Positions 10,401 to 36,660 of a stretch of DNA of 43,287 nucleotides are shown piece by piece. The stretch comes from a virus. The DNA lies in IMG/VR virus record IMGVR_UViG_3300025410_000035, positions 1 to 43,287 of that record, one strand, 5' to 3'. The notes under the pieces were generated by a model, which worked only from the letters and a program-made list of their open reading frames with translations, was not told the DNA's origin and did no database searches. The translations under genes were made by a program, and so were the position numbers. The stretch's first letter is position 1; every line of letters starts with the position of its first letter.

Positions 10401-10404
10401 AATA

Positions 10405-10478: not shown

Positions 10479-10505
10479 AACTGTGGCATATTTACAACAT
10501 GTCGC

Positions 10506-10534: not shown

Positions 10535-10568
10535 AACATCTTGTTATGAAACATTGAAGAAAGTTTTT

Positions 10569-10666: not shown

Positions 10667-10672
10667 TTTTTT

Positions 10673-10844: not shown

Positions 10845-10861
10845 TTTTGAAGGAGTTAATA

Positions 10862-19402: not shown

Positions 19403-20756
19403 TGATGAATATTTGCGGAAAGTTCTCCCGTTTCTTAAACCCGAATATTTCTCTGAGAATTCCGACCGCACATTGTTCAACGAGTTACACCAATTCGTAC
19501 AAGATTACAATGGTGCGCCAACGGTTGAAGCACTTACATTGGCCATCGAAGACCGGAGAAATCTCACGAATGATGAAATGGAAAGATGCAAAGAGAGTTT
19601 ACAAGAGATTGCATCATCTACACTTGAAGGATCAGAACTTCAATGGCTTGTTGATAGGACCGAAAAGTTCTGTCAAGAGAAAGCAGTCTACAACGCAGTA
19701 TTGGGGGCAATTTCTATACTTGACGGGAAGGACAAAACTTCCGAGAAAGGTGCGATTCCCAAGATATTATCGGATGCCTTGGCTGTAAGCTTTGATAGTT
19801 CCGTAGGTCATGATTATTTGGAAAACTCGGATGAACGATATCAATTCTACCACAGACACGAAGAAAGAATCCCATTCGATTTGGAATTCTTTAACAAGAT
19901 TACAAAAGGCGGTCTTCCAGCCAAAACGCTCAACATCGCATTGGCAGGAACTGGCGTTGGTAAGTCTCTTTTTATGTGCCATGTGGCTTCTAGTTGCATG
20001 GTACTGGGTAAAAATGTACTTTACATAACAATGGAAATGGCTGAAGAAAGAATTGCGGAACGTATTGATGCAAATCTTTTGAATGTGACCGTTGATGATT
20101 TAGTGTCTATGCCTAAAGATATGTTTGATAAACGAATCAACAAACTACGTGAGAAGACTGTTGGTAAATTAATCATCAAAGAATATCCAACCGCATCGGC
20201 TTCTGTTACACACTTTAGGACACTACTCAATGAGCTCAATCTCAAAAGGTCTTTTAAGCCTGACATTATTTTCGTGGATTATCTTAATATCTGTTGTAGT
20301 TCAAGACTCAAAGCCGGAGCCAACGTCAACAGTTACACTTATGTCAAAGCTATCGCAGAAGAATTGCGAGGTCTTGCCGTTGAATTCGGACTACCAATTG
20401 TTTCTGCTACGCAAACTACAAGAAGCGGATTTAGTTCATCTGACCCAGGGTTGGAAGATACAAGCGAGTCTTTTGGTCTGCCAGCAACCGCAGACTTGAT
20501 GTTTGCTCTTATTTCATCCGAAGAACTAGAAGAAATGGGACAGATTATGGTCAAGCAATTGAAGAATCGTTACAATGATCCAACATATCTGAAACGATTC
20601 ACACTTGGCATCGACCGTTCTAAAATGAGATTGTATGACGTTGAACAATCAGCACAGCAAGGCTTGGCTGATGCTGGTCATAGTGACAAACCTATAAACA
20701 CATTCGGCAATAGAGAAAAACCTACCAAGAAGGCATTTGATGGATTTAAAGTTTGA
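19362..20756 (+). CDS. 41: Replicative DNA helicase, T4 gp41/DnaB-like
   Basis: 464 aa from ATG 19362. N-terminal helical domain, then RecA-like motor: Walker A ALAGTGVGKSLF (about 191-202), NVLYITMEMAEERIAERID, Walker B PDIIFVDYLNI, and SATQTTRSGF. Unwinds DNA 5'-3' at the fork with the primase encoded at 39600. Confidence 0.95.
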   Translation: MKLEQTILKNLIYNDEYLRKVLPFLKPEYFSENSDRTLFNELHQFVQDYNGAPTVEALTLAIEDRRNLTNDEMERCKESLQEIASSTLEGSELQWLVDRTEKFCQEKAVYNAVLGAISILDGKDKTSEKGAIPKILSDALAVSFDSSVGHDYLENSDERYQFYHRHEERIPFDLEFFNKITKGGLPAKTLNIALAGTGVGKSLFMCHVASSCMVLGKNVLYITMEMAEERIAERIDANLLNVTVDDLVSMPKDMFDKRINKLREKTVGKLIIKEYPTASASVTHFRTLLNELNLKRSFKPDIIFVDYLNICCSSRLKAGANVNSYTYVKAIAEELRGLAVEFGLPIVSATQTTRSGFSSSDPGLEDTSESFGLPATADLMFALISSEELEEMGQIMVKQLKNRYNDPTYLKRFTLGIDRSKMRLYDVEQSAQQGLADAGHSDKPINTFGNREKPTKKAFDGFKV

Positions 20757-21846
20757 TGAAGCCTTGCATTGTGCAAAGGTATTTGAAAATTATTTTGGTA
20801 ACTTCAATCGCATCGATGAATATATGAAGGATCAAAAACTCAAGTCACTTAGTGGTTTGGGTGATCCTTTGTTTCCATTGGAAGATGACTTGTTCTCCGA
20901 TTTTACGATGCATCCAAAAGATATGAATTTTGAAATCATCGAAATGCAAACTGAATCGTGGGAAAACTTGTTGAACATTACCAGTTCACACATCAACATT
21001 TCTCCTGTTGGTCGTCAGGTTAGGCTTGCTGTTAGAGAAACCAATACAGGTAAGATTGTTGGCTTCTTGAGACTTGGTTCTCCAGTTATCAACATGAAGC
21101 CTCGTAATGAAATGCTAGGTCAGGTCTTCACACAACAAAAAGAATGGGGTACTCGTTTCAATAACTCTGCTATGATGGGTTTTGTTATTGTGCCAGCACA
21201 ACCTTTCGGTTACAATTATCTTGGTGGAAAGTTACTTGCAGGTATCTGTACTAGCCATGAAGTGCGTGAAATTGTCAACAAGAAGTATGGCATGAACCTG
21301 TGCCTATTTGAAACCACAAGTCTGTATGGTTCATCTAAGACCGTGTCTCAATATGATGGCATGAAACCCTTCATTCGTTACAAAGGTTTGACCGACTCTG
21401 ATTTTATTCCTATGATGCACGGCCAAGAGTATGATGACCTAGTTGCATTTGTAAAAGATAAAGTTGGTGATATTGTAGATGAAGATGCTTCAAGTAAGAA
21501 GTTGAAAACCACAATGAAGATTATTGCCATGGTTAAAGCATCATTAAAGAGTGATAAAGACGCTTTAAGTGCATTTAATGATACAATAACAAAAGCCAAA
21601 GACTTGACCGAACAGAAACGTTACTATATCAGTGACTATGGTTTCAAGAATATGGTTGACTATGTGAACTGCAAAACTGATGTGTTGATTCCTGGTGAGA
21701 ACTATGCAAAACATAAAATGGCCAACATTGTTGAATGGTGGAGAAGTAAAGCAATCAATCGTTATGCAACACTACATAATGAAGGTCGTTTGAGAACAGA
21801 ATTGGAAGTCTGGACTTCTGGTAAGGACATTCAGATTATCAGATAA
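20740..21846 (+). CDS. DUF4338/DruA-like protein
   Basis: 368 aa; AAGAAGG before ATG 20740. Central GYNYLGGKLLAGICTSHEV... NKKYGMNLCLFETTSLYGSSKTVSQY is the kind of core seen in DUF4338 proteins, a family that includes DruA of the Druantia defence system. Proteins of this type also occur in T4-like phage replication blocks. Biochemical activity unknown; assignment by motif memory. Confidence 0.6.
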   Translation: MDLKFDEALHCAKVFENYFGNFNRIDEYMKDQKLKSLSGLGDPLFPLEDDLFSDFTMHPKDMNFEIIEMQTESWENLLNITSSHINISPVGRQVRLAVRETNTGKIVGFLRLGSPVINMKPRNEMLGQVFTQQKEWGTRFNNSAMMGFVIVPAQPFGYNYLGGKLLAGICTSHEVREIVNKKYGMNLCLFETTSLYGSSKTVSQYDGMKPFIRYKGLTDSDFIPMMHGQEYDDLVAFVKDKVGDIVDEDASSKKLKTTMKIIAMVKASLKSDKDALSAFNDTITKAKDLTEQKRYYISDYGFKNMVDYVNCKTDVLIPGENYAKHKMANIVEWWRSKAINRYATLHNEGRLRTELEVWTSGKDIQIIR

Positions 21847-21849
21847 ATA
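21842..21849 (+). promoter_or_regulatory. Late promoter-like GATAAATA
   Basis: Overlaps the stop codon of the DruA-like gene (TAA 21844-21846); 19 nt before the next ATG. Confidence 0.5.
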
Positions 21850-21867
21850 CTTCCATTTGAGGTTCAA

Positions 21868-22617
21868 ATGGCAGCTCAACAGGGTTTTCAATATGAAGAA
21901 AATGCAGCAAAGGTTTTGAAAAAGATGGGTATTGTTCCTAAAAACTTTACACCTGCTGGTGCAAGCCATGACCAACCAGACTTGATGTTGGAACACAACA
22001 AGAAAAAGTCTGGATGTGAATTGAAGATTACAGCTGCATCAGCAGGTTCTCTTGTTTTGAAATACGATACAAAAGATAAAAAGAATCCGTGGAAATTTGG
22101 TGACATTGACAAAAACGATACAGAAAAGATGTTCATCAAAGACTTGGCTGATGAGATTGGATTGTTTGATACAATTAGAAAACAATGGAAAGAGATTCCA
22201 TTCAAAAGAGAAAAAGATGAATTGTGGGAAGCCACAGCAGGTAAACTAACCAAGAAGCAAATCTATGAAAGAGATAGAGACACCTTCAAGGACATTCGAG
22301 GTGAAATTCCTGCAACAAAAATTGAACAGTATTATAACAAGAAGAAGACCTACTATGTAAACGTAGGAACACACGGATTTTATTTGATGGGTAGAAGTAA
22401 CCCATTAAAGTTAAAAGATGTACCAACTTTTGGTTCATCAGCTAAGGCAACATATCGTGCAAGAGTACAATATAAAGGAAGTGACAATTATCAATTCACT
22501 TTTGAAATGCAGTTCTCCATACCCGCTGCAAAAAAGTCACCTTACAACATAGCACCTGTCGATGGTAAAACTGTAAAGATCATCGAAAAGGATATCAACT
22601 TAAACTGTTTCGTATAA
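21868..22617 (+). CDS. Predicted PD-(D/E)XK nuclease-like protein
   Basis: 249 aa. N-terminal QGFQYEENAAKVLKKMG, then HDQPDLMLEHNKKKSGCELKI (about 34-54) fits the PD-x(n)-ExK core of restriction-endonuclease-like folds (D38, E52, K54). The remainder is lysine-rich and beta-rich. Substrate unknown. A protein with a similar lead-in (GFAYEQQFVDRLKKH) is encoded at 29228. Confidence 0.55.
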   Translation: MAAQQGFQYEENAAKVLKKMGIVPKNFTPAGASHDQPDLMLEHNKKKSGCELKITAASAGSLVLKYDTKDKKNPWKFGDIDKNDTEKMFIKDLADEIGLFDTIRKQWKEIPFKREKDELWEATAGKLTKKQIYERDRDTFKDIRGEIPATKIEQYYNKKKTYYVNVGTHGFYLMGRSNPLKLKDVPTFGSSAKATYRARVQYKGSDNYQFTFEMQFSIPAAKKSPYNIAPVDGKTVKIIEKDINLNCFV

Positions 22618-22618
22618 A

Positions 22619-22921
22619 ATGGCACTCGTAGATTTTGACAAACTCGCAAAAGAATATGCTAGCGTTAACGTTAGTGATACATTCAATTTTTCTGCTATAT
22701 CGGAAGATGAATACAAAAAAACTCTTGAAGATGCACAAAATGATGCATCAGAATTGACAGCTGAACAATATAAAGAAAAGTTGAAGAAACTTGAAGCAAT
22801 GATTGTTCCTTTCCTACACAAACTACATAGTACAGGCGATAAAGAATATATCTATTGGCCTAATCGTAAACCTGTTATTGAAAAACAAATTGAAGAAATT
22901 TTGAAACTGACTAGAGAATGA
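22619..22921 (+). CDS. Conserved hypothetical helical protein
   Basis: 100 aa, acidic and helical (MALVDFDKLAKEYASV... WPNRKPVIEKQIEEILKLTRE). I recall similar short proteins in cyanophage-like T4 relatives, without known function. Starts 1 nt after the previous stop. Confidence 0.68.
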   Translation: MALVDFDKLAKEYASVNVSDTFNFSAISEDEYKKTLEDAQNDASELTAEQYKEKLKKLEAMIVPFLHKLHSTGDKEYIYWPNRKPVIEKQIEEILKLTRE

Positions 22922-22922
22922 T

Positions 22923-23630
22923 ATGACTGCTACTGTTATTATGCCAACTACAGGTTCGCCTGAGTTGAAAGATGCTTTGACTTCGGTATTAAATCAAACT
23001 TACCCAACAACCGCATATGTTGTTGCGGATGGACCAAAGGCACATTCATCGACAAGACTGAATGTTGGTTACCATGAAAATCTATACATTTGTAATTTAC
23101 CAATCAACGTTGGTGCAAATGGTTATTATGGCCATCGTGTGTATGCCGCTTTTACACATTTGGTAAATACCAAGTATGTTCTTTACTTGGATCAAGATTG
23201 TTGGTTTGAACCAACTCACGTAGAGTCTTGCATCAAACACATAGAAGAAAACAACCTAGACTGGTCCTATTCACTCCGGAACATCATGGATAAAGATGGT
23301 AAATTCTTGACTACCGATGATTGTGAATCTCTTGGTAAATGGCCAGTTTTTAGTGGTAATTATAACCATATAGACACTAATTGCTATTGCATAAAAACTG
23401 AAGTTGCGATAAAATTGGCACAGATTTGGCACGGTGGTTGGGGACAAGATAGAGTTTGGTTACAAGCCTTGTCGCAATACTTTCCAAAATTTGATTGTAC
23501 GGGTGAATACACCGTCAATTATAGAGTTGCAGGAAATGCTGGCTCAGTAAAACCAGAATTCTTCTTGCATGGTAATGAAGTGATGAAACAGAAATATAAT
23601 GGAGTTTTCCCATGGCGAAACAAAATCTAA
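22923..23630 (+). CDS. Family 2-like glycosyltransferase
   Basis: 235 aa GT-A fold: ATVIMPTTGSPELKDALTSVLNQTY at the N-terminus and YVLYLDQDCWFE (DQD as the DxD metal motif, about residue 83). Uses a nucleotide sugar donor; acceptor unknown. First of a run of sugar-related genes overlapping by 4-19 nt. Confidence 0.82.
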   Translation: MTATVIMPTTGSPELKDALTSVLNQTYPTTAYVVADGPKAHSSTRLNVGYHENLYICNLPINVGANGYYGHRVYAAFTHLVNTKYVLYLDQDCWFEPTHVESCIKHIEENNLDWSYSLRNIMDKDGKFLTTDDCESLGKWPVFSGNYNHIDTNCYCIKTEVAIKLAQIWHGGWGQDRVWLQALSQYFPKFDCTGEYTVNYRVAGNAGSVKPEFFLHGNEVMKQKYNGVFPWRNKI

Positions 23631-24478
23631 TTATTGGTGGTTGCACCAATTACGGTATCAATGAACTAAAACCATGGGTGTTGTCTATCAATGAGACAAT
23701 GCCTAATGTGAAAAAAGTAATGTGTGTTGGTAATGCGACACAAGAAACCAGAGATTGGTTGGTTGAACAAGGCTTTGAAATTTTTCCTATGCCACAAGCC
23801 AACATTCCAGTTCATGTGTTGCGCTTCTTGTCTATCTATGAATACCTACGTCAGAATTGGGAACAGTTTGAATATGTTATCACCACTGATGTGAAAGATG
23901 TGTACTTCCAAAAAGACGCATTTAAATTCTTAGACTACCATAATGTTGGTGTCAGAGATATGCACCAATTGGTTTGTGCCTCCGAAGCACTGAAATACAA
24001 AGATGAATCTTGGGGTAACGAGAACTTATTGCAAGCCTATGGTCCATACATCCACAATCTGTTCAAAGATAATATTATCTTCAACGTTGGTGTTCTAGGT
24101 GGTTCTGCTGAATACATGAGAGACTTGGTGTTTAACATCTTCTCTAATGCAACCAATCGTCCAATTGCTATTGTTGACCAAGCCGTGTTCAACGTACTAA
24201 TCAACACACAACCATACAAAAATATTGTGTTCAAAACTTGGATGGATCATGGTTGGGCAGTTCAAGCAGGTACAGTTGCAGACCCATCTAAGATTGATGG
24301 TTTCAGACCAAATCTTTTGGAACCAGAACCAAAATTTGTTGATGGTAAAGTAGTCAACTCTAAAGGCACAGAATTTGCCATCGTACACCAATATGACCGT
24401 GTGCCAGAATGGAAGAAGTTCGTGGCTGAAAAATACGGACAAGAAGATCAATCTCAATATTTTACATATAAAGCATGA
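23612..24478 (+). CDS. Glycosyltransferase-like protein
   Basis: 288 aa; EYVITTDVKDVYFQKD (about 88-103) is a DxKDV-type donor/metal motif of GT-A-like phage and bacterial proteins; NVGVLGGSAEYMRDL and VDQAVFN follow as in GT8-like enzymes. Probably transfers sugar within the same pathway as its neighbours. Confidence 0.68.
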   Translation: MAKQNLIIGGCTNYGINELKPWVLSINETMPNVKKVMCVGNATQETRDWLVEQGFEIFPMPQANIPVHVLRFLSIYEYLRQNWEQFEYVITTDVKDVYFQKDAFKFLDYHNVGVRDMHQLVCASEALKYKDESWGNENLLQAYGPYIHNLFKDNIIFNVGVLGGSAEYMRDLVFNIFSNATNRPIAIVDQAVFNVLINTQPYKNIVFKTWMDHGWAVQAGTVADPSKIDGFRPNLLEPEPKFVDGKVVNSKGTEFAIVHQYDRVPEWKKFVAEKYGQEDQSQYFTYKA

Positions 24479-25464
24479 AAAAAATCTTATACGTAGTGCA
24501 TCGTTATGCACCATACCCTGGTGGTTCTGAAAATTATGTGCGTGATATGGCTGAAGAAACCTTATCACGTGGTCATCAAGTTGCCGTATTTGCAGGCGAA
24601 CACAAAGGTGATGTGAACGGAGTTAGAGTAACTTCAGATGTACAAATCTTTGGTGAAAAATGGGACTTGATTGTTGTTCATGGTGGTGATGTACCATTAC
24701 AAGATTTTGTTCTTACAAACATCAATAAAATCCCTTCGCCGGTTATGTTTATGTTGATTCGTCCTTCACAATCATATACCTATACTGTTGCAATGAGAGA
24801 CTGTAGTTACATTGCTTGTTCAACCGAAGAAGATTGGGAATTTGTTAGAGCCAAAGGTTATGAACATAAGTCAGTACAAGTATCACATGGCGTTGTCGGT
24901 GATAACTGTTTGGCTAATAGAAAGAAATACGAATCTTTACCTGATCTTACAGATGATACTTTCCGTAAAAGATACGATATCAAAACTAAAAACATGTTCT
25001 TGTCTTGTGGTGGTTTCTGGCCAAACAAAGCATTCCATGAACTTATCGATTGTTTTAAGAAAGCAAACCCATCAGATACAACATTAGTGTTGACTGGTTA
25101 TGATAATCGTCACGGTATCATGCCACCAGATGAGGAAAACATCAGAACATTGATGTTAGACAATCACAAAGAAGTGTATGAAGCTATTGCGGAATCAGAC
25201 CTATATATTATGCACTCACACAGTGAAGGTTTTGGTCTAGTTCTATTGGAGTCGATGGTCAACACGACTCCTTGGGCTGCAAGAAACATTGCTGGTGCTA
25301 GAGTATTGAAAGACTATGGTTTCACATATGATAATGATGAACAGTTGATTGAATATTTGAAAGATTTTAAACCTGATCTAAATCAAATTTCGGAAGGTTA
25401 TCATTTTGTATGGAAGAACCATCAAATTAAAAATACAGTTGATGGAATATTGAACGTACTATGA
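24475..25464 (+). CDS. GT4-type (GT-B) glycosyltransferase
   Basis: 329 aa. N-terminal VVHRYAPYPGGSENYVRDMAEE and C-terminal HSEGFGLVLLESMV (about 248-261; the E-x7-E signature of GT4 family enzymes). Retaining GT-B glycosyltransferase predicted. ATGA overlap with neighbours. Confidence 0.85.
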   Translation: MKKILYVVHRYAPYPGGSENYVRDMAEETLSRGHQVAVFAGEHKGDVNGVRVTSDVQIFGEKWDLIVVHGGDVPLQDFVLTNINKIPSPVMFMLIRPSQSYTYTVAMRDCSYIACSTEEDWEFVRAKGYEHKSVQVSHGVVGDNCLANRKKYESLPDLTDDTFRKRYDIKTKNMFLSCGGFWPNKAFHELIDCFKKANPSDTTLVLTGYDNRHGIMPPDEENIRTLMLDNHKEVYEAIAESDLYIMHSHSEGFGLVLLESMVNTTPWAARNIAGARVLKDYGFTYDNDEQLIEYLKDFKPDLNQISEGYHFVWKNHQIKNTVDGILNVL

Positions 25465-26834
25465 CCAAATTAGTTATCTTTGACCTTGATGGTGTGTTAC
25501 TTGATTCACGTGAATTACATTATGAAGCTTTGAATGAAGCACTTCGTAAAATCGGTGAACAATTCATAATCACCAGAGAAGAACACCTATCGACCTACGA
25601 TGGGTTAAACACCACCAAAAAACTCCAGTTGTTATCACAAAACAAAGGTTTGCCAACAGAATTGTACGACCAAGTTTGGCAAGATAAACAACAAGCAACC
25701 TTTGACTTAATTCCAAATGCACCAAAAAATCCTTCAATAAGATATATTGTAGGCCAATTAAAGTTGCATGGTTGGAAAGTTGCTGTTGCATCAAACTCAA
25801 TACGACACACAGTAAAGCTTGCATTAGCTTCTATGGGTGTATTGGAACACATTGATTACTATGTGAGTAATGAAGATGTGTTTAGAACAAAACCATATCC
25901 AGAAATGTATTGGAAATGCATGACCGCATTAGGTGCTTTACCAAAAGATACAATCATCGTTGAAGATAGTCACATTGGTCGTGAAGGTGCAATCAATTCT
26001 GGCGCAACATTATATCCAGTGAAAGATGCTTACGAATTAAATGGTATAGTGTTTATGCAATATCTCGAAAGCTTTGAGAAATCACAAACAAGTAAAAATA
26101 TACCATGGAGAAATAAAAAGATGAACGTACTTATTCCTATGGCTGGTGCAGGTTCTAGATTTGCACAAGCTGGTTATACATTCCCTAAACCATTGATTGA
26201 TGTGAATGGTAAACCAATGATTCAGGTTGTGGTTGATAACCTAAACGTTGAAGCACACTTCATTTTCTTGGTTCAAAAAGAACACTACGAGAAGTACAAT
26301 CTACAATCAGTTTTGAATTTGATTGCACCTGGATGTGATATTGTACAAGTTGATGGCTTGACAGAAGGTGCTGCATGTACTACACTATTAGCTAAAGACT
26401 TCATTAATAATGATGAACCATTGTTGATGGCTAACTCAGACCAATTCGTAGAATGGAACTCCAATGAATGTTTATATGCTTTTACTGCCGACTCAATTGA
26501 TGGTGGCATTGTCACTTTTAAGTCAACTCATCCTAAGTGGTCTTTTGCCAAAATCGGAGAAGACGGATTTGTTACAGAAGTCGCTGAGAAGAATCCTATT
26601 AGTGACATTGCTACTGTCGGTATTTACTATTGGAGCCATGGTTCTGACTACGTGAAGTATGCAGAACAGATGATTGCAAAAAATATTCGTGTCAATAACG
26701 AATACTATGTTTGTCCAGTATTCAATGAAGCTATTGCAGATGGCAAGAAATTCCGTGTGAAGAACATTAATAAAATGTGGGGTCTAGGTACTCCAGAAGA
26801 TTTACAACATTATTTGGAACACCACAAATCATGA
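25461..26834 (+). CDS. HAD phosphatase fused to sugar nucleotidylyltransferase
   Basis: 457 aa. Residues 1-215: HAD hydrolase with DLDGVLLD (D8, D10), VASNS and IVEDSHIG, beta-phosphoglucomutase-like. Residues 221-457: nucleotidylyltransferase with PMAGAGSRFAQAGYTFPKPLI and NSDQFVEW, like RfbA/GlmU-type enzymes. One polypeptide could dephosphorylate and activate sugar phosphates. An internal ATG at 26121 opens the second domain and might give a separate product. Confidence 0.83.
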   Translation: MTKLVIFDLDGVLLDSRELHYEALNEALRKIGEQFIITREEHLSTYDGLNTTKKLQLLSQNKGLPTELYDQVWQDKQQATFDLIPNAPKNPSIRYIVGQLKLHGWKVAVASNSIRHTVKLALASMGVLEHIDYYVSNEDVFRTKPYPEMYWKCMTALGALPKDTIIVEDSHIGREGAINSGATLYPVKDAYELNGIVFMQYLESFEKSQTSKNIPWRNKKMNVLIPMAGAGSRFAQAGYTFPKPLIDVNGKPMIQVVVDNLNVEAHFIFLVQKEHYEKYNLQSVLNLIAPGCDIVQVDGLTEGAACTTLLAKDFINNDEPLLMANSDQFVEWNSNECLYAFTADSIDGGIVTFKSTHPKWSFAKIGEDGFVTEVAEKNPISDIATVGIYYWSHGSDYVKYAEQMIAKNIRVNNEYYVCPVFNEAIADGKKFRVKNINKMWGLGTPEDLQHYLEHHKS

Positions 26835-27550
26835 ACGTAGCATTAGTTTTAACAGGACACTTGCGTTGTTGGGAACAAGTGTTTCCAAACACCAAAGAAA
26901 CAATCCTTGATCGTTGGAACCCAGACGTATTCATCCATTCTTGGGACGAACAAGCTTGGTGGGACCCACATAGTAAAGAAGGTTTTGTTGCAAATTCACC
27001 TGAAATTGATATCAAAGGTGTTCGTGAAGCATATAAACCTGTTTCTTTTGTAACTGAAGACTTTGAAAACTATCGTGCAGGCTTTGACCAACACGCCGAA
27101 TTATATGAAAAACACTATCATGTAAAACGTAATATCATTTCCATGTTCTATAAGATGCACAAGGGTATGGAATTGGTAAATGATTATACAGCTAGAACAG
27201 GCAAACACTACGATATGGTTATTCGTATGCGTCCTGATTTGGTGTTTAAGAATCATCTACCCAACTTTGATCCTAATAAATTCTATACTATCTTGCATAG
27301 AAACCATGTTGGCCAAGGTACAGGTGATATGTTCCAAGTCAGTAACCCATGGTTGATGACCATTTATACAAACATACTTACCGTTCTACCGCACATCTAT
27401 AAAGAAACTGGCATTTTGTGTCCACATATTGTATCAGAACACTTCTTTAAAAAGATGAACTTTCCTTGGGAAGAATTTCCAATCGAACGTATGTTGATGC
27501 ACACTCCAGCCGGTGAGTATAAACCAAAACAAGTATACGGATTTCAATGA
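26831..27550 (+). CDS. Putative glycosyltransferase-like protein
   Basis: 239 aa from ATG 26831. MNVALVLTGHLRCWEQVF at the N-terminus and YDMVIRMRPDLVF (about 130-142) are typical of a phage/cyanobacterial glycosyltransferase-like family. Embedded in the sugar gene cluster; ATGA junctions on both sides. Confidence 0.65.
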   Translation: MNVALVLTGHLRCWEQVFPNTKETILDRWNPDVFIHSWDEQAWWDPHSKEGFVANSPEIDIKGVREAYKPVSFVTEDFENYRAGFDQHAELYEKHYHVKRNIISMFYKMHKGMELVNDYTARTGKHYDMVIRMRPDLVFKNHLPNFDPNKFYTILHRNHVGQGTGDMFQVSNPWLMTIYTNILTVLPHIYKETGILCPHIVSEHFFKKMNFPWEEFPIERMLMHTPAGEYKPKQVYGFQ

Positions 27551-28005
27551 TTTATATTGCACATAGAGGCCTGATTGCAGGTCCAGACAAAGACAAAGAA
27601 AATAACCCTGAATGGATTCAAGAAGTTTTGAATAAGGGTTTTTCGGCTGAGATTGACCTATGGAGATACAACGATGAGTTAATCTTAGGTCACGATGAAC
27701 CACAATATAGAGTCTCGATAGACTTCTTACTGGCTAACCGTCAGAAGTTGTGGATACATGCAAAAGATATTGATGCATTAGAGTATCTGTCCACTGGTCA
27801 AGGTCTAAACTACTTCTGGCACGACAAAGACGACTACACCATTACTAGCTATGGTTATATTTGGGCTTATCCAGGTAAGAAAGTACCTTCAATGGGTATT
27901 TGCGTACAACCGGAATGGGACAGCAATTTTGACCCTACGAACTTTAAACCTAAATGCATAGGTATTTGTTCAAAACATGTCGGACTACTAGCCGAATATA
28001 ACTAA
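27547..28005 (+). CDS. GDPD/PI-PLC-like TIM-barrel fragment
   Basis: 152 aa. IAHRGL (residues 4-9), AEIDLW (34-39) and LGHDEP (47-52) match the active-site motifs of glycerophosphodiester phosphodiesterases, but the protein is much shorter than the usual ~240 aa, so only part of the barrel may be present. May act in glycan or lipid head-group chemistry with its neighbours. Confidence 0.68.
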   Translation: MIYIAHRGLIAGPDKDKENNPEWIQEVLNKGFSAEIDLWRYNDELILGHDEPQYRVSIDFLLANRQKLWIHAKDIDALEYLSTGQGLNYFWHDKDDYTITSYGYIWAYPGKKVPSMGICVQPEWDSNFDPTNFKPKCIGICSKHVGLLAEYN

Positions 28006-28052: not shown

Positions 28053-29231
28053 ATGTATACATTCAAGTCGTTTTTAACAGAAGAAACCGAAGAAGGTACG
28101 AAACTTAAGCATATTACTCATGCTGAGGATCGTCCTTTGCAGCATGGAGCAAAAGGGTTTCAACATGCATATAATGCTTTACATCATGTGCATGACCATA
28201 TCAAATCAGGTGCAAATAGTTCGGCTCTAACTATGAAATATGATGGTTCTCCGTCAGTTGTTTTCGGTCACCATCCAGAGACAGGTAAGTTTTTTGTTGC
28301 ATCAAAATCAGCCTTCAACAAGAACCCTAAACTGAATTTCAACCACAAAGATATTCAAAAGAACCATGGCCACGCACCAGGTTTGATGGACAAACTACAT
28401 TCCGCACTGAATCATCTACCAAAAATTGCACCAAAATCTGGTGTGTATCAAGGTGACCTGATGTATTCAGAAGGTGATTTGAAACACAAAGATGGTGGAA
28501 AAGTATCGTTTGAACCAAATACCATCAGATACACAGCCTCCGGTGACAAGGCAGATAAGATCAAAAATTCTAAGATGGGTATTATCGTGCATACACAATA
28601 TCACGGTAACGATATCCATACGATGGCTGCGGATCCACATCCAGACCTACACAACTTTGCACAACACAAAGACGTATGGCACCAGTCTGCAAACCACGAC
28701 ACAAAACACATTCACTATTCTGAAGAAGACCAAAAAGAATTTAAAAAACATATGGCCGAAGCTGATAAGATTCATTCAGCAAATAGAGGTACAATGTACA
28801 AAGCCACAGAACCACATCGTGGTGAAGGTAGTCATCTAGAAACTTACATTAACCATACAGTAAGAACCGATGAAGAACCTACTTCTGAAGGTTTGAAAAA
28901 ACACATTCAAGATAAGTATGACAAGTCAGCAGCTAAACTAAAAACTCCTGCTGGCAAGGCAAAACGATCACAAGAAGCAAAATCGCATATGTTACATATT
29001 GATGCAAATAAAGAACAATATGATAACATGTTAAAAATGCACTCACATCTACAAGCTGCTAAAAATGTTCTAATTAAAAACTTAGAACAACATGAGGGTG
29101 GACTTGAACATCATATTGACAACAAGAGAAGTAAGCCAGAAGGTTTCGTTGTCAATCATGGTGGCGAACCAACTAAATTGGTTAACCGTAAAGAGTTTGC
29201 TCGTGCCAATTTATTGAAGGTTAGAAAATGA
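28053..29231 (+). CDS. Ligase/nucleotidyltransferase-fold virion-associated protein (DUF6267-like)
   Basis: 392 aa. Starts MYTFKSFLTE, like a T4 capsid-targeting sequence ending in an L/I-x-E protease site. Then covalent nucleotidyltransferase signatures: MKYDGSPSV (K62-x-D-G, motif I), GVYQGDLMYSEGDL, EGFVV (363-367, motif IV) and KLVNRK (375-380, motif V). These are the motifs of ATP-dependent nucleic-acid ligases. His-rich middle. Product probably joins or caps nucleic acid ends; not demonstrated. Confidence 0.65.
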   Translation: MYTFKSFLTEETEEGTKLKHITHAEDRPLQHGAKGFQHAYNALHHVHDHIKSGANSSALTMKYDGSPSVVFGHHPETGKFFVASKSAFNKNPKLNFNHKDIQKNHGHAPGLMDKLHSALNHLPKIAPKSGVYQGDLMYSEGDLKHKDGGKVSFEPNTIRYTASGDKADKIKNSKMGIIVHTQYHGNDIHTMAADPHPDLHNFAQHKDVWHQSANHDTKHIHYSEEDQKEFKKHMAEADKIHSANRGTMYKATEPHRGEGSHLETYINHTVRTDEEPTSEGLKKHIQDKYDKSAAKLKTPAGKAKRSQEAKSHMLHIDANKEQYDNMLKMHSHLQAAKNVLIKNLEQHEGGLEHHIDNKRSKPEGFVVNHGGEPTKLVNRKEFARANLLKVRK

Positions 29232-30223
29232 AAACACTGAATTACTTATTGTTTGAAGCATTAGAAATGTCACGTGGTTTCATCAAAGGAACTGGTGCAG
29301 AAGCTGCACGCCACGAAAGACAATACATCACACCACATCTTGGTGCAACAGATTATACTCACACTCTAGGTAAAGCACATGATGATGTACCGGCTGGCGC
29401 AAAGTTAATGTTCCACAAAACAGAAGTGCTTGATGGTAAATTGCATGTACATGCTACTGACGACCAAACTCGTACAAAACATGTTATTCCAGTTTCAAAG
29501 ATTCATAAACCAGGTGAAGTAAAAGCCAACAAAGGTTTTGCATATGAACAACAATTCGTTGACCGTTTGAAGAAACATGGTTTGATGGAAGGTGAAGCTG
29601 CTGGTTTCACATCAGGTAATGACTTCAATCTAGTTAACAAAAAGAACAAGACCAAACACAAAGGTGAAGTACACAACGAAAGTGCTTTACAAGGTGAAAC
29701 AAAAGCAGGCAAGACAGCCGCATTTGGTCAACTAACAATTGCATACGATAAGAAAAAAGGTGGTTGGCATATTCCAGATGATGCTCGTCAAAAACGACCT
29801 GGTTATGCAAAACACATTGAAGACAAGGGTATTGTTGAACATATGAACAAACACCACAAACCAGAAAAACAAGGTCTGGTTGCTGGTGGTCCACTTGCAA
29901 AGAACGTTATGTTTGAACATGATAATTTAGAACCAGCAAATGCATATTTGGGTGACCATCATGTAGACGTTGTTCAAGTTGGTAAACATGGAACATACAA
30001 GGTCGGTAAGAAAGATAAAACAGGCCACGGTCTTCCTAGTTTGACAGGTAAAGGTCAATGGAGAGTCCGCCAAAAGACTGCCGATCCACTAAAACGTACA
30101 GTACAATTCATGGTTAAAAATGCAGATAAGAGTCACGTTGACCTAGATAATGATGACCACTTGGCAGCCATGGCAAAAACATTGGGTCATAAACCACTTA
30201 ACTTCAAGAAATCAGAAGAATGA
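29228..30223 (+). CDS. Possible nuclease-like virion-associated protein
   Basis: 331 aa. Short N-terminal segment MKTLNYLLFEA resembling a capsid-targeting sequence. Central GFAYEQQFVDRLKKHGL ... SGNDFNLVNKKN ... QGETKAG has the E, D and E-x-K order of a PD-(D/E)XK nuclease core. Lys/His-rich. Overlaps neighbours by 4 nt. Confidence 0.5.
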   Translation: MKTLNYLLFEALEMSRGFIKGTGAEAARHERQYITPHLGATDYTHTLGKAHDDVPAGAKLMFHKTEVLDGKLHVHATDDQTRTKHVIPVSKIHKPGEVKANKGFAYEQQFVDRLKKHGLMEGEAAGFTSGNDFNLVNKKNKTKHKGEVHNESALQGETKAGKTAAFGQLTIAYDKKKGGWHIPDDARQKRPGYAKHIEDKGIVEHMNKHHKPEKQGLVAGGPLAKNVMFEHDNLEPANAYLGDHHVDVVQVGKHGTYKVGKKDKTGHGLPSLTGKGQWRVRQKTADPLKRTVQFMVKNADKSHVDLDNDDHLAAMAKTLGHKPLNFKKSEE

Positions 30224-32121
30224 AATCATTCCTACAGTTAGTCGAGGAAAAAGAAAAAACCAAAAAGCCAGTCGTAATGGCTTTTGGTCGTATGAATCCG
30301 CCTACAACCGGTCACTTAAAACTGATCGATAAGGTACGTTCAGAAGCAGAGAAACGTAAAGCTGCACATACAATTATTGTTTCTCATTCACAAGACACCA
30401 AAAAGAACCCACTTTCTGGTGCTCAAAAGGTTAAACACCTAAAGCGTTATTCTCCAGGTACTCACTTTGAAGCATCTTCAAAAGAACACCCAACAATTAT
30501 GCACCATGCAGCACGTTTACATGCAGCAGGTCATGACCACTTGGTGGTTGTTGGTGGTTCAGACCGTGTAAAAGAATACCACGATTTATTGCACCGTTAC
30601 AATGGAAAACCAGATAAGTCTGGCCATGTACCTTTCAACTTTAAAAAGATTGAAGTGGTTTCAGCAGGACACCGTGATCCTGACGCTGAAGGTGCAGAAG
30701 GTATGTCCGCTACTAAGATGAGAGATCACGCCAAGAATAATGACTTCAGTTCATTCCGTCAGGGTGTGCCACATCACGTTTCAGATAACCATGCAAGAGA
30801 ATTGATGAAAGATGTCCGTAAAGGTATGGGTATCAACGAATCTTTTGACCATGGTATCTTTAAGGCAGTTTTTGTGACTGGTGGTCCAGGTTCTGGTAAA
30901 GATGTTGTTATTCGTGAAGCCATTCCAGAAGCACATGCAGTAGAATTGAATGTGGTTCAAGCTTACGATTACCTTGCAGACAAAATGAAGTTGTCGGAAC
31001 AGTCTAGTGACTACCGCAGAGAAGCATTGCGTACCCGTGGTCCTTTGATTATCAATGGTCCAGCCGATGACATTCAACGTATTTCATACATCAAAGAAGA
31101 GCTAGAAGAACTAGGATATAACACTTTGATGATTTTTGTACACACTTCCGATGAAGTATCACAAGAGCGCAACACCAGATTGTCACGTATGATGGTAGAA
31201 TCCGTAAGACATGACAAATGGATTCGTTCACAAAAAAGTAAAGATATGTACTTTGAAATGTTTGAACACATGATTGAATTTGATAACTCCGATTCGATTA
31301 TTGAAGAAAATATCAACGATATCTACCAAATTTCTGAAAAATTCTTTGATAAAAAGAGTTTCAATGACATTTCTGAGAGCTGGCTAGAAAGTCAAGGAAA
31401 GCTAAATATACTAGAGAAAAGTTCGAAATCTATTCAGACTTCTACCGTTAAAAAATACAACCCTTTCTATCAGGCAGCTGGACCGTCAGATGCAATTCCA
31501 GACAACGATAGAAAGAGAAGTTCATCGGATCAAATCAAGGGTGATACTTTCCCTAGAAAAAATCCTAATGGTAATGGTCATTCAGGTGGTGCTTGGTCTG
31601 GTGCATATAGTACCGAAGAAGCAAAACCTATGTTAAAGATTAGTGCTCCTCCAAAAGAACCAAAATTTAGACTTGATAAAGATAAATTGAAGAAGTTGAA
31701 AAGAGGAGATACAAGTTTAAGTGCTGCTCGTGTTGGTAAACCTTCTGGCGTTGGACCAGAATATGATACGAGAGCTGGTGGTCAGGGTGCCGCAGCAGGC
31801 GCCGGCTTAGGTGACCAAACGTACAGTGAAGATTATGCTGGTCCTACAACAAGTAATGCAGATGTAAGCAATTATGCAGGTATGACTGGTGTATCCGTAA
31901 ATCCTTTGGATTCAAGATATCAATCTAAAGAATTTGACAAATTTAGAAAGAAATTTAAGAAAGAAGCCATTGATGATCCAGGTTCAACAGACATGGGTGT
32001 TGGCGGAACTCTTGGTGGTGCAAGTAACAAAGAAGGTATGGATACCTACAAGGATACCATGCGTAATGTACAAAACGATTACGGTCTGAAAATTAAAAAG
32101 AAGAAAAAAGGGGCAAAATAA
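30220..32121 (+). CDS. Nucleotidyltransferase-kinase fusion, virion-associated
   Basis: 633 aa. N-terminus MKSFLQLVEE is capsid-targeting-like. Residues 17-190: HIGH-type nucleotidyltransferase (FGRMNPPTTGH, 22-32; GMSATKMR, 161-168, the ISSTxxR-like motif). Residues 210-370: P-loop kinase (VTGGPGSGKD, 219-228). C-terminal 250 aa are low-complexity, Gly/Lys-rich. Domain order recalls NadR-type nicotinamide nucleotide enzymes, but substrate is unknown. Confidence 0.72.
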   Translation: MKSFLQLVEEKEKTKKPVVMAFGRMNPPTTGHLKLIDKVRSEAEKRKAAHTIIVSHSQDTKKNPLSGAQKVKHLKRYSPGTHFEASSKEHPTIMHHAARLHAAGHDHLVVVGGSDRVKEYHDLLHRYNGKPDKSGHVPFNFKKIEVVSAGHRDPDAEGAEGMSATKMRDHAKNNDFSSFRQGVPHHVSDNHARELMKDVRKGMGINESFDHGIFKAVFVTGGPGSGKDVVIREAIPEAHAVELNVVQAYDYLADKMKLSEQSSDYRREALRTRGPLIINGPADDIQRISYIKEELEELGYNTLMIFVHTSDEVSQERNTRLSRMMVESVRHDKWIRSQKSKDMYFEMFEHMIEFDNSDSIIEENINDIYQISEKFFDKKSFNDISESWLESQGKLNILEKSSKSIQTSTVKKYNPFYQAAGPSDAIPDNDRKRSSSDQIKGDTFPRKNPNGNGHSGGAWSGAYSTEEAKPMLKISAPPKEPKFRLDKDKLKKLKRGDTSLSAARVGKPSGVGPEYDTRAGGQGAAAGAGLGDQTYSEDYAGPTTSNADVSNYAGMTGVSVNPLDSRYQSKEFDKFRKKFKKEAIDDPGSTDMGVGGTLGGASNKEGMDTYKDTMRNVQNDYGLKIKKKKKGAK

Positions 32122-33650
32122 TGTTCACAACTAACAAAGTATCTAAGTCATTGCTTGATGCAGTATCTACCATCACAGAAGATAAAAAAAGAATGCTTAC
32201 TGATGATGATTTAGATGAAACTGGTTTTCATAAAGCTGCTCATGCTGCTAAGAAAGCAAATCAGAAGCATTTTGAATTCATGGGTAAAAAATATCCAGTT
32301 ACAGCCAAGTCTCACAAAGAAGAATATGAATTGGCCAAAGAAGGTAACTGTGTTACACCTATGAAAGCAAAAGATATTGCTAAAAAAGAAGTTGGCAAAC
32401 ATGAAAAAGGTATGCATGGTAAGAACGGTGAAGTAGCTCAACACGTTAAGAAAATGCACAAAGAAGAAACTGTAGATGAAGGTCTAAAAGACACTTTGAA
32501 ATCAGCAGGCAAAAAAGTATTGTCTAAACTAGGTCATGGTGACGATGAAGCTATGCGTAAAGACTTGCAAAAGAAAATGGGTATGCCACAAACAGGTAAG
32601 AAACCAGAATCACCAATGGCATCACACAAAGAAGAAACTGAAGTTGCACCTTTGAACTTCAAAGAACGTTTGTTAGAACGTGAAATGACCAAGAAAGAAA
32701 AAGCTAAGAGACATGAAATCTCTGGTGCTATGGAAAAAGACCCATCATACTTCAAAAAGAAATATGGCGCAAATTGGAAAAATGTAATGTACGCTACTGC
32801 TACCAAGAAAGCCATGGGTGAAGAACTTGAACAAGTAACTGAAGCCGAAACAAAAGATGTTGCAACAGATATGTTGAGTGGTCGTGAACAAGGCGAAGGA
32901 AAAACAAATAGCTTTAGAAACTTCAAAGTGAAAATTGAAGGCAGCCAAAAGACTGCAAGAGAACCTGAAGTTGAAAAAGCACCAGACTCAAAAGCAAAAG
33001 AATCTATCAAAGCTCACGGTGGCGGTGTAAACCCAATCGAACAACCAAAAATTGGTGTTGATGGCCACGGTAATGTTGAATTCACTAAACAAGGTTTCGC
33101 TGAAGAAGTAGAATATCTTGACGAAGCAAACATCACACACGCAGCTCACTTTGATGATCCAAAAACAGGTAAATGGGCAAGTATGGCTTTGTTGACTGCT
33201 AAAAACGATGCAGAAGCCATGGAACAAGCTAAAGACTTGTTGAGAACACATGCATATCGTCATTATAAATTGTCTGCTGTTGAAAAACACGAGCCAATTA
33301 AAATGAAGATGAAAATGAAAGAAGAAGTTGAAAACGTTGAAGAAGGTTGGGATGACATGATGAAGGATGTTAAATCCAAAAGTGCTCCACAACCAAACGG
33401 CGGCGCAGGTAAGAAACAAGGTTCTCGTTACGGTGGTTCTAAACAAAAAGACAAACCAGAACATGACGACAAACCAATGAAAGAAGGCAAAGACCCTGAA
33501 ATGGATTCTGGTGCCGGTTCTGCACCAAACTTTGCAACTCCTGCTAATACAACATCTAGTCCAGTGATGAAACGTGTTAAAGAAATCACAAAATCAGCAA
33601 TGGGCCGTGTTAAGAATGAAATGTTGGGTAAAGCATCAGGAAACCAATAA
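32121..33650 (+). CDS. Lys/Glu-rich virion-associated protein
   Basis: 509 aa, mostly charged and low in hydrophobics. Recognisable blocks: HKAAHAAKKANQKHFEFMGK and DPSYFKKKYGANWKNVMYAT, both recurring in proteins of aquatic T4-like phages as I recall. Several (L/I)-x-E sites suggest processing by a gp21-type protease. Probably an internal or head protein. Confidence 0.6.
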   Translation: MFTTNKVSKSLLDAVSTITEDKKRMLTDDDLDETGFHKAAHAAKKANQKHFEFMGKKYPVTAKSHKEEYELAKEGNCVTPMKAKDIAKKEVGKHEKGMHGKNGEVAQHVKKMHKEETVDEGLKDTLKSAGKKVLSKLGHGDDEAMRKDLQKKMGMPQTGKKPESPMASHKEETEVAPLNFKERLLEREMTKKEKAKRHEISGAMEKDPSYFKKKYGANWKNVMYATATKKAMGEELEQVTEAETKDVATDMLSGREQGEGKTNSFRNFKVKIEGSQKTAREPEVEKAPDSKAKESIKAHGGGVNPIEQPKIGVDGHGNVEFTKQGFAEEVEYLDEANITHAAHFDDPKTGKWASMALLTAKNDAEAMEQAKDLLRTHAYRHYKLSAVEKHEPIKMKMKMKEEVENVEEGWDDMMKDVKSKSAPQPNGGAGKKQGSRYGGSKQKDKPEHDDKPMKEGKDPEMDSGAGSAPNFATPANTTSSPVMKRVKEITKSAMGRVKNEMLGKASGNQ

Positions 33651-33651
33651 A

Positions 33652-34893
33652 ATGGATGCTAAAAAAGTAAAAGATATCATTAAGAAAACGGTTGCACCAA
33701 AGTCTACCTTTGGCACCGATCCAAGAGACCCATGGTCCGCAAAAGCTGGCATTGCTGAGTCAGCTTTGCTGGACCGTTACTTGTTGTCTAGAGGTATTCA
33801 ACCAAAATTTGCAAGTAAAGATATAAAGGTTGCACACTCAAAGTCTAATGAGTTTAAGAAGTGGGCTCGTGACCATATGAACACCGAAGAAATTCAAGTG
33901 GAAGATATGGGTCATATGGCAACCAAAGGTGAAGGTGGTAAAACTTCTGACCGTGCAGGTGAAATTAAAAAAGCAAAAGATTCTTATAAAGAAATCAAAA
34001 CACCTCGTGGACCAGGTACTCACAACGAAGGTTATGATGATAACCGTACCGGTTTTGCGAAGAAATCACGTGAAGATGATGAAGGTCATCCAAGAACTAA
34101 ATTCAAAGCAAAATCATTGATGGACCGTCCACATACAGTTCATGTTGATGGTAAATCTTGGAAAAGATTCCCTAACGGTCACCAAGCACACAAGGCTGTA
34201 GAGACACTTACATCAAAAGGTAAGAAAGCTGTTGCTATCGCACATTTCAAAGAAGAAACTGGTTTATGTCCTTTGTGTAATGAGGATCCATGTTCTTGTA
34301 GTCACGGTTTTGTTCAAGAAGCTCGTATGACAGCTGCAATGAAACTTCAACGTGCTTTGGGTCGTGAACAAGAAAGAAGTGAACGTGAACGCCGTTTAGG
34401 TGCAGAGTTGATTAAAAAACCAACAACACCACAAAAACAAGACCACGATCCACTTTCACAAACACCTAAAATGACACAGGAAGATGTTGGTGATGCAAAG
34501 GCTGCTGTTAATGCAGATGGTCTACCTAACGCACAACTAGAACCGGTGTCAGAAGTTAAAAAACAACTATCAAAATCGGCTCGAATGCTTAAATCTATCT
34601 TTAAAAAAGATATGATGAAAGAAGATATGTACGACCATGAGAAAGAAGATAAGTCTGTTGCCACATACGGTAAAAAACCAAAGATGGACTCAGCAGACCC
34701 AAAAGACAGTAAAGGTGAGAATAAACCACAAGCTGCCGCAGTTCTAACTGGTGGTACAACACTAACAGGTCAAAAACGTGATACTATTGAAATTGATCCG
34801 ATGATGAGAGCACGTCCTGGTCAACCTGATCCTACTAAGAAGAAGGAAGGTGAGAAGGATGACAAAAAAGACGATAAGAAAAAAGATAAATAA
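33652..34893 (+). CDS. Charged virion-associated protein with Cys cluster
   Basis: 413 aa from ATG 33652. KxxDPRDPWSAKAGIAESALLDRYLLSRGI near the N-terminus; CPLCNEDPCSCSH (about 218-230) could bind zinc; lysine/aspartate-rich tail. No enzyme family recognised. Follows the 509-aa protein by 1 nt. Confidence 0.6.
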   Translation: MDAKKVKDIIKKTVAPKSTFGTDPRDPWSAKAGIAESALLDRYLLSRGIQPKFASKDIKVAHSKSNEFKKWARDHMNTEEIQVEDMGHMATKGEGGKTSDRAGEIKKAKDSYKEIKTPRGPGTHNEGYDDNRTGFAKKSREDDEGHPRTKFKAKSLMDRPHTVHVDGKSWKRFPNGHQAHKAVETLTSKGKKAVAIAHFKEETGLCPLCNEDPCSCSHGFVQEARMTAAMKLQRALGREQERSERERRLGAELIKKPTTPQKQDHDPLSQTPKMTQEDVGDAKAAVNADGLPNAQLEPVSEVKKQLSKSARMLKSIFKKDMMKEDMYDHEKEDKSVATYGKKPKMDSADPKDSKGENKPQAAAVLTGGTTLTGQKRDTIEIDPMMRARPGQPDPTKKKEGEKDDKKDDKKKDK

Positions 34894-34920
34894 GCCATAA
34901 GTTTTCAAAGGAGAAAAACC

Positions 34921-35541
34921 ATGCCAATGTGGGGTAATACTGACAACGCTAATAAAAAGCCAAAGTCACCAAACACAAGAAACGTAAGAGAAGTAATTCA
35001 GATATCACTAGGCTCTTGGGCAAACACAGGACAAGCTAACCTTACGTTAGTTTATAATGACGGTGCAGGCAACAACGTTGCAAACATCGGTGTTGCTACA
35101 GGTCAGTTCGTATATTTCTATCCTAACGGTGCGAATAATGCTGGTGGTGCTGCTGGTAACGGTTATCCAAGTATGTTTTCATCCAACAACACTGTATTGT
35201 CTATCAGCGGCAACACAGTAACATTGGCTGCTAACGTGTTTGCTAACACATCACCAGGCGCAACAATCGAATTTGATAAGACACTTCCATATAACTCAAA
35301 CAAAGTATATGAAAAGAACTTTAACCAAGACGTAGTATTGGTAACACCAACTCGTATGGCTAACGCATCATTTGCTAATAACGCAACATCACATGCCGGT
35401 TGGGTAAAAGTAACAACAGGTACTGGTGGTCGTGCAGGTCGTGTTCAAACAGAAGTTTTGGTTGCATTGGCAAGTCCAACAGCAGCTAACACATTGTCTG
35501 GTAACACATCTAATAGTTCGACTTACTACGCTGGCGTTTAA
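34921..35541 (+). CDS. Virion structural protein
   Basis: 206 aa, beta-rich, Asn/Gly/Ala-rich. MPMWGNTDNANKKP at the N-terminus and HAGWVKVTTGTGGRAGRVQTEVLVA near the C-terminus match a structural protein repeatedly seen in cyanophage-type T4 virions. Strong AAAGGAG before the ATG indicates high expression. Followed by a UUCG-capped terminator. Confidence 0.75.
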   Translation: MPMWGNTDNANKKPKSPNTRNVREVIQISLGSWANTGQANLTLVYNDGAGNNVANIGVATGQFVYFYPNGANNAGGAAGNGYPSMFSSNNTVLSISGNTVTLAANVFANTSPGATIEFDKTLPYNSNKVYEKNFNQDVVLVTPTRMANASFANNATSHAGWVKVTTGTGGRAGRVQTEVLVALASPTAANTLSGNTSNSSTYYAGV

Positions 35542-35548
35542 TGATAAG

Positions 35549-35571
35549 GGGTGCTTCGGCACCCCATTTTA
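35549..35571 (+). terminator. Terminator with UUCG loop
   Basis: GGGGTGC-TTCG-GCACCCC, 7-bp perfect stem with a stable tetraloop followed by ATTTTAAT. Sits between the structural protein stop and the next ATG (35574); readthrough is probably partial since genes continue. Confidence 0.72.
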
Positions 35572-35573
35572 AT

Positions 35574-35960
35574 ATGTTTGAAAATCTTAATGATGACAAT
35601 TTCATGATGTATGCGATGAAGTGCTATAACTCACCTCATTACATAATGTCTGAATTTGACGGAGATATGAAACGAACAAAGTACCTAAAAAGACTTTTTC
35701 GCAGATATAAGAATGGTGGTTCGTTGAAGGAACGCCTGATACTAAACCACATTATTTTATTGAATAATGTTTTTGGTCCTGAAGCCACGGCTAGAATATT
35801 ATTCTATAAGATAGAAGAACGTGATTATGATGTATTGAAAACTTTTTTGTGTTATCTAAATATTATGCCAGAAACGATTTTGGGTATTAACGGTAAGGAC
35901 TTGTCTTCTTACGAGATACCAATGAACGGCCAAGTTGCAGAAATACTAATAAAAATATGA
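35574..35960 (+). CDS. Conserved T4-like phage protein (DUF7207-like)
   Basis: 128 aa from ATG 35574; the in-frame ATG at 35541 would place the terminator hairpin in the coding region. NFMMYAMKCYNSPHYIMSEFDGDMKRTKYLKRLFRRY and LKERLILNHIILLNNVFG match a helical protein conserved in cyanophage-like T4 relatives. Function unknown. Confidence 0.72.
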   Translation: MFENLNDDNFMMYAMKCYNSPHYIMSEFDGDMKRTKYLKRLFRRYKNGGSLKERLILNHIILLNNVFGPEATARILFYKIEERDYDVLKTFLCYLNIMPETILGINGKDLSSYEIPMNGQVAEILIKI

Positions 35961-36466
35961 GAACATTCAAACAATACGTAAACGAAAGATGCTGGACAGG
36001 TTACAAACCAGTACCTGGCAAAAAGCCATACTCTAAAGGTTCATGCAAAAAAGAAGATATCAATTATGATATCGAAATGTATGAAGCTGACGATGAAGAA
36101 GAATTCACTCACGTTTTGGAAATGGTGAATGAAGAAGGTGAAGAACTGGACTTGTTCATTGTTGCTGAATCTGATGAAGATGCAGAAACACTTGTAGACC
36201 TAATTGAAACAGCTGCATGGCAACGTAAAGAAGGTAAGAGTGCAACTGGTGGACTAAACGCCAAAGGTATTGCATCATATCGTAGACAAAATCCAGGTTC
36301 TAAATTGAAGAAGGCTGTTACAGGCAAAGTAAAACCTGGTTCTAAAGCTGCTAAACGTAGAAAATCATTCTGTGCTCGTATGTCTGGAATGAAAGGCTCT
36401 ATGAAGAAACCAAATGGTGAGCCAACCAGAAAAGCACTAGCTTTACGCAAGTGGAAATGCAGATGA
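35957..36466 (+). CDS. Conserved phage protein (DUF6321-like)
   Basis: 169 aa. N-terminal MRTFKQYVNER is capsid-targeting-like. C-terminal block AWQRKEGKSATGGLNAKGIASYRRQNPGSKLKKAVTG...KAAKRRKSFCARMSGM is a well-conserved basic module of aquatic T4-like phages. Likely nucleic-acid binding because of its charge; no activity known. Confidence 0.72.
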   Translation: MRTFKQYVNERCWTGYKPVPGKKPYSKGSCKKEDINYDIEMYEADDEEEFTHVLEMVNEEGEELDLFIVAESDEDAETLVDLIETAAWQRKEGKSATGGLNAKGIASYRRQNPGSKLKKAVTGKVKPGSKAAKRRKSFCARMSGMKGSMKKPNGEPTRKALALRKWKCR

Positions 36467-36660
36467 AAAAATTTAAAGACTACATAACAGAAATGGGTGC
36501 AGGTGCTGCAGCTGCTGCAGGACCCACAAACGCTGTTAGTTCAGGCGCAATCGCTGGTTCTGGTGGCAAAGGCGGAGAACCTGGTGTTGATATGAAAAAA
36601 CGAAAACGCAATTATAATCCCATCATGATGAGTATGGGTAAAAGAAAGGCGCAGAAGTGA
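36463..36660 (+). CDS. Small capsid-targeting-like protein
   Basis: 65 aa from ATG 36463 (ATGA overlap), MKKFKDYITEMGAGAAAAAG... The first 10 residues resemble the T4 internal-protein targeting sequence (MKTYQEFIAEA) with an I-T-E cleavage site. The rest is Gly/Ala-rich with a basic tail. Confidence 0.6.
   Translation: MKKFKDYITEMGAGAAAAAGPTNAVSSGAIAGSGGKGGEPGVDMKKRKRNYNPIMMSMGKRKAQK

Follow-up and report, generated by a model that had tools for sequence, protein, structure and literature searches.

Five proteins of a T4-type phage begin with exact ten-residue tags that are probably capsid-targeting sequences of the T4 internal-protein type, so that the proteins bearing them would be packaged in the head, trimmed and co-injected as free, early-acting enzymes. 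Their genes lie on the plus strand and span 8.6 kb of the 43,287-nucleotide stretch of viral DNA analyzed here (IMGVR_UViG_3300025410_000035; hereafter the window). The leaders, as read from the translations, are MYTFKSFLTE (28053-28082), MKTLNYLLFE (29228-29257), MKSFLQLVEE (30220-30249), MRTFKQYVNE (35957-35986) and MKKFKDYITE (36463-36492), and agree letter for letter with the N-termini given in the earlier note. All five conform to the pattern M-x-x-[FL]-x-x-[FLY]-[LIV]-x-E, and positions 4 and 7 are hydrophobic or aromatic in every case. The strict L/I-x-E ending is found in the leaders at 28053, 29228 and 36463; the processing site at 30220 would be either LVE at residues 7-9 or VEE at residues 8-10, and the leader at 35957 ends in V-N-E, departing from the strict form.

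The window is a fragment, and a longer record that contains it, IMGVR_UViG_3300025838_000019 (166,639 b; G001), allowed most of the phage to be scanned. The window corresponds to positions 96,363-139,649 of G001: three query proteins match at 100%, and nine of nine sampled 60-mers fall at one constant offset. A narrow class pattern based on the leader of T4, with F or Y at position 4, matches four of the five genes (shuffled mean 0.08); it is the fairer test, because the broad pattern above was designed after these genes were known. The broad pattern matches exactly 5 of the 240 genes called in G001, against a shuffled mean of 0.33 and a maximum of 3 in 2000. The five proteins are the sole convincing tag carriers among these called genes. 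Further matches found in G001 when any start codon was permitted lie at internal or alternative starts, and such matches were excluded before counting in G001, S-CREM2 and T4 alike. A candidate sixth tagged gene at 141,373 of G001 was rejected as an internal methionine of an NrdB-like sequence, the surrounding region being what we take to be NrdB. As a positive control, the broad pattern applied to the annotated coding sequences (CDS) of T4 recovered ipII, ipIII, gp24 and gp61.1; it missed ipI and alt, whose leaders are longer or of another kind.

In the T4 IPIII leader, residues 4 and 7 are reported to govern targeting and residues 8 and 10 processing, according to the available text of a review (PMC9026906). 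The same positions are constrained in DUF6267, the family of the protein encoded at 28053. Among 77 single-ATG DUF6267 N-termini, selected without use of the motif, positions 4, 7, 8 and 10 carry 2.23, 2.15, 1.86 and 1.81 bits of information, against 0.59, 0.65 and 0.80 bits for positions 5, 6 and 9. This contrast is informative because kinship acts equally on every position. In the relatives sampled, the best 80 of at least 597 loci and hence biased towards the neighborhood of the window, the tag was present in 102 of 112 distinct N-terminal sets of DUF6267 and in 12 of 21 sets of DUF6321 (the family of the 35957 product, whose leader is conserved in homologues from L011 and L014). The nuclease family of 29228 matched exactly in 23 of 36 sets, or in 34 of 36 with one extra residue permitted. 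Two families from the same gene cluster, used as negative controls, were untagged throughout (DUF7207, 0/21; the 34921 type, 0/8). Across 91 sequences, 125 of 1508 genes were tagged at their first start, with a shuffled mean of 3.3, and the rate at internal methionines was 0.30% as against 8.3% at first starts. The tagged proteins form 33 clusters, which include chance matches; since the largest cluster joins DUF6267 to the cytidylyltransferases and several singletons appear to be accidental, 33 is not the number of true families. On the evidence of these sequences, the tag is present on many unrelated families.

In AlphaFold 2 models of the 28053 and 29228 products, residues 1-15 fall below a predicted local distance difference test score (pLDDT) of 50, as expected of a predicted detachable peptide. 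Long proteins (590-736 residues, in L036, L037, L039, L040, L063 and L080) open as tagged DUF6267. In four of these sequences (L036, L039, L063 and L080) DUF6267 is fused directly to a cytidylyltransferase, and the inner cytidylyltransferase has no tag; the fusion suggests that the two parts may act together.

Published virion proteomes provide the strongest test made here of whether the tag predicts packaging, based on the available parts of each publication. A cytidylyltransferase or NMNAT-like virion protein has been reported for S-SM1 (PMC3037559), S-CREM2 (PMC10665884), S-SZBM1 (PMC9146016) and S-SCSM1 (PMC9602691). All four of these proteins are tagged, their translated leaders being, in the same order, MKKFSAFLNE, MKNFSSFLTE, MRFRQFIIE (one residue shorter) and MKSFLQFLKE. 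The annotated CDS of S-CREM2 with an exact tag encode an S-adenosylmethionine (SAM) hydrolase, gp13, an APH-like kinase and the cytidylyltransferase; the virion list, which covers 52 of 219 CDS, includes all four (p = 0.0029, or 3.5e-4 when 24 structural proteins are set aside). This count uses annotated starts, with doubtful starts checked, and a match at 133679 lies within the annotated nrdB. With called genes, in which gp14 begins at an upstream GTG, the count is 3/3 (p 0.011; 0.0023 without structural proteins), and two of the 52 detected proteins are unmatched by gene calls. Among the other S-CREM2 virion proteins, gp136 is near-tagged (MQTFSMFFSE) and the Cas9-like gp12 has a tag-like RFASFMAEAA following residue 16. 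The minus-strand group of gp6 and gp12-gp15 in S-CREM2 (3000-23000, L177) encodes tagged or near-tagged virion proteins. In S-SCSM1, seven of the nine genes in the cluster of open reading frames 89-97 are annotated as virion proteins, and the small virion protein S-SCSM1_93 (L114:6627-6836) has a tag-like stretch at its end, TFKEFLEYIE. The DUF6267 protein of S-SZBM1 is neither tagged nor, in the available list, detected in the virion.

The processing machinery that the tag would require is encoded in the same genome. G001 contains a gp21-type prohead protease (Peptidase_S77, PF03420, E 2.5e-35) and gp23 (PF07068, E 5e-147), and Peptidase_S77 was found in all six named phages. The gp23 and gp22-like proteins of G001 start with L-T-E sites (MYLTED... 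and ...AILTED...), which would fit a protease of L/I-x-E specificity but do not prove it.

The tagged protein at 28053..29231 (392 residues) belongs to DUF6267 (PF19782, E 2.3e-98) and has an RNA-ligase-like fold. Its AlphaFold 2 model (pLDDT 90.1) gave 50 of 50 listed VIA-align matches to RNA or DNA ligases or to ligase-containing complexes of non-homologous end joining. RNA ligases rank first, the best match being 6vt9 (Z 9.0, root-mean-square deviation 3.8 over 183 residues), and T4 Rnl2 (2hvq) follows at Z 7.9; a Foldseek search with the model gave a best E of 0.026 and none below 0.001. The ligase motif I, K-x-D-G, is present, and all 53 sequences compared keep K62, D64 and G65. The protein resembles T4 RNA ligase 2, Naegleria RNA ligase and fungal Trl1 in fold and in motif I; it differs from them in its identity of about 10%, a helical insert and the putative head-targeting leader.

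The protein at 29228..30223 (331 residues) resembles HhaI-like PD-(D/E)XK nucleases by its model (pLDDT 84.3). Residues 101-318 align to HhaI (6uke) with Z 10.9 and a deviation of 3.5 over 173 residues, the next match standing at 7.4, and residues 17-98 form an N-terminal domain that aligns to SH3-like domains; HhaI is not in the best 50 Foldseek matches for the model. Residues D132, E157, K159 and Q168 are invariant in 45 sequences, the D...E-x-K arrangement being placed from sequence and not from the HhaI superposition. The likeness to HhaI lies in fold and catalytic motif; the identity is 11% in the structural alignment, and the SH3-like domain and leader are additions. No relatives were found in annotated phages. 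An untagged paralogue lies in the window at 21868..22617 on the plus strand; it begins MAAQQGFQYEE and matches over residues 100-306 (pairwise BLASTP, E 2e-5).

The third protein, at 30220..32121 (633 residues), combines a cytidylyltransferase/NMNAT-type nucleotidyltransferase with a P-loop kinase-like domain. PF01467 passes its cut-off and phrog_3041 matches at E 7e-62. A NadR-type NMN adenylyltransferase was rejected, as TIGR01526 scored 15.7 bits against an equivalog cut-off of 341.15; the general TIGR00125 domain alone passes. The protein is related to the virion-detected cytidylyltransferases of the four cyanophages, with which it shares a homologous domain and the tag, and, for S-SM1, S-SZBM1 and S-SCSM1, a common genome neighborhood. 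It differs from them in its extra P-loop domain and in the targeting role proposed here, the available parts of the cyanophage reports proposing no packaging signal.

The two remaining tagged products, a DUF6321 protein of 169 residues (35957..36466; PF19846, E 1.8e-22) and a small Gly/Ala-rich basic protein of 65 residues (36463..36660), are not recognizable as enzymes. The open frame of the smaller product is listed from a GTG at 36451, and the ATG taken here as its start, at 36463, falls four codons inside that frame; a protein like it in L064 starts with MKTFKEYINE. The T4 protein gp61.1 (L106:18966-19130), a hypothetical protein of 54 residues, starts with the near-perfect capsid-targeting sequence MKTFKEFIKE. 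Its likeness to the 36463 product was judged by eye alone, and both genes lie near gene 61; gp61.1 may possibly be an unrecognized internal protein of T4.

The earlier note had proposed that these starts resemble capsid-targeting sequences, a view now supported by position-specific conservation, by non-homologous carriers and by the detection of tagged relatives in published mass spectrometry. It had also described the downstream domains as ligase-like, nuclease-like and nucleotidyltransferase-kinase. The first two calls gain support from the AlphaFold models together with the catalytic motifs; in the third, Pfam, PHROGs and NCBIfam bear out the nucleotidyltransferase, with a weak assignment for the kinase half. 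Its wider suggestion of a set of DNA/RNA end-processing enzymes could plausibly hold for two or three of these proteins, and does not extend to the products of 35957 and 36463.

The evidence covers the residues that determine targeting and the detection of relatives in virions, and the remaining steps are modeled on T4. During prohead assembly, residues 4 and 7 of the tag, both hydrophobic or aromatic, would dock it onto the scaffold core, and closure of the prohead would enclose the attached protein in the head. The gp21-type protease of the phage would then cut after Glu10 or the nearest L/I/V-x-E, leaving a trimmed, free enzyme beside the packaged DNA. On infection these enzymes would pass into the cell alongside the genome and be at work ahead of phage gene expression, the injected set comprising the RNA-ligase-like protein, the HhaI-like nuclease and the nucleotidyltransferase-kinase, with catalysis presumed for each. 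Plausible roles are attack on host or rival DNA by the nuclease, repair of defense-induced RNA damage by the ligase and kinase, and cofactor control by the nucleotidyltransferase; with low confidence, we rank RNA repair and early takeover as the likeliest.

Several observations count against this reading. The pattern fits 35 of 72 distinct N-terminal sets of cytidylyltransferases near the window, and many relatives of the 30220 protein have a degenerate MKSFLEKLEANS start that lacks residues 7 and 10. It also fits three of six sets of UvsX, a protein not expected to be packaged in the head; the pattern therefore yields false positives. The late promoter TATAAATA does not occur just upstream of 28053. 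T4-type late promoters in the window showed no excess over chance, and an argument for late expression from promoters was dropped, as it favors neither side. Two tagged small proteins, SSZBM1_191 and SSCSM1_30, are undetected in the available virion lists, and a tagged S-CREM1 cytidylyltransferase is unnamed among 14 virion proteins in the available passages of PMC9964418, which do not permit a judgment. Most virion proteins listed for the clusters of S-CREM2, S-SZBM1 and S-SCSM1 are untagged, so that the tag is not the sole route into the virion, and the authors of two proteomes allowed for enzyme contamination in the parts available (PMC10665884, PMC9602691).

The two undetected small proteins would suit a tag that serves only as a tether to the prohead scaffold: the tethered proteins would do their work or be broken down there, and would be expelled before maturation. 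The core proteins of T4, too, have sites of this kind and are for the most part eliminated, as the available review text has it (PMC9026906). Such a tether appears unlikely given that tagged cytidylyltransferases, the SAM hydrolase and the kinase were detected in purified particles, as listed in the available proteomes. The caution of the proteome authors and the UvsX matches would be accommodated if the virion enzymes were abundant contaminants and the N-terminus a generic amphipathic helix, for example for binding the replication machinery. We consider this improbable as well, since detection in S-CREM2 tracks the tag in four of four cases and the constrained positions are exactly those that serve targeting and processing in T4, among them Glu10, for which a generic helix would have no need. 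That the shared start reflects common ancestry or a translation-start effect, copied genes having retained their first codons, might be argued from the four-base gene overlaps at 29228 and 30220 and from the adjoining of leader-bearing genes. It seems very improbable: the mature parts of the tagged proteins are unrelated, the nuclease paralogue in the same genome has no tag, untagged genes of the cluster are just as closely packed yet start otherwise, and tag positions 5, 6 and 9 vary.

The untagged members of the cluster, all on the plus strand, lie between the third and fourth tagged genes. They comprise a protein of 415 residues (33646..34893), the 34921..35541 product, which shows a short N-terminal similarity to an HTVC008M protein, and the DUF7207 protein (35541..35960). 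A 509-residue protein at 32121..33650, also on the plus strand, has a longer N-terminus, closed by ITE at residue 20, which could be a leader, though we do not claim one. Its ...LLDAVSTITED resembles ...SDAAKAILTED of the G001 gp22-like scaffold, and may represent a longer leader type. Immediately ahead of the tagged genes, 22923-28005 appears by eye to encode glycosyltransferase-like and sugar-nucleotide proteins. Elsewhere in the window, ARAGORN predicts 28 tRNA genes at 2132-12603, and a protein encoded between them (10847-12301) is presumably, by eye, a Ro60/TROVE RNA-binding protein.

Taken with what is known of T4, the system shares with IPI, IPII and IPIII (MKTYQEFIAE) the ten-residue tag and its spacing, the constrained positions 4, 7, 8 and 10, a gp21-type protease gene and variable cargo. 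It differs from those small basic proteins in that the tag is also found on multi-domain enzymes of 330-630 residues and on many families across Kyanoviridae-type phages. The available review text describes T4 Alt as a head-carried enzyme ejected into the host (PMC9026906), and the enzymes proposed here as head cargo would be comparable; Alt is an ADP-ribosyltransferase whose leader is not matched by the tag pattern. The capsid-targeting sequence is thus already known, and the authors of that review, in the text available, noted similar sequences in other T4-related phages (PMC9026906). New here are the range of families that carry the tag, the presence of enzymes among the cargo and the agreement with published virion lists. 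Our literature search for a capsid tag in cyanophages returned no account beyond the review, and the literature searched held no mention of DUF6267.

If the tagged proteins are indeed packaged and injected, a single short motif would be enough to list what proteins a phage delivers to its host. The recurring cytidylyltransferases of cyanophage virions, which the original authors could not separate from contamination, would be accounted for, and early-acting nucleases, ligases and kinases of aquatic T4-type phages would come to light. A broader proposal, to which we give even weight for and against, is that in aquatic phages of the T4 superfamily the detachable ten-residue address serves as a modular, secretion-like code, whereby acquiring it would be enough for any protein to be loaded, trimmed and delivered into the next host. 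Each phage would then carry swappable, pre-made effectors that act before transcription, to which S-CREM2 would add its SAM hydrolase and APH-type kinase, and injected effectors would become predictable by their tag from sequence alone.

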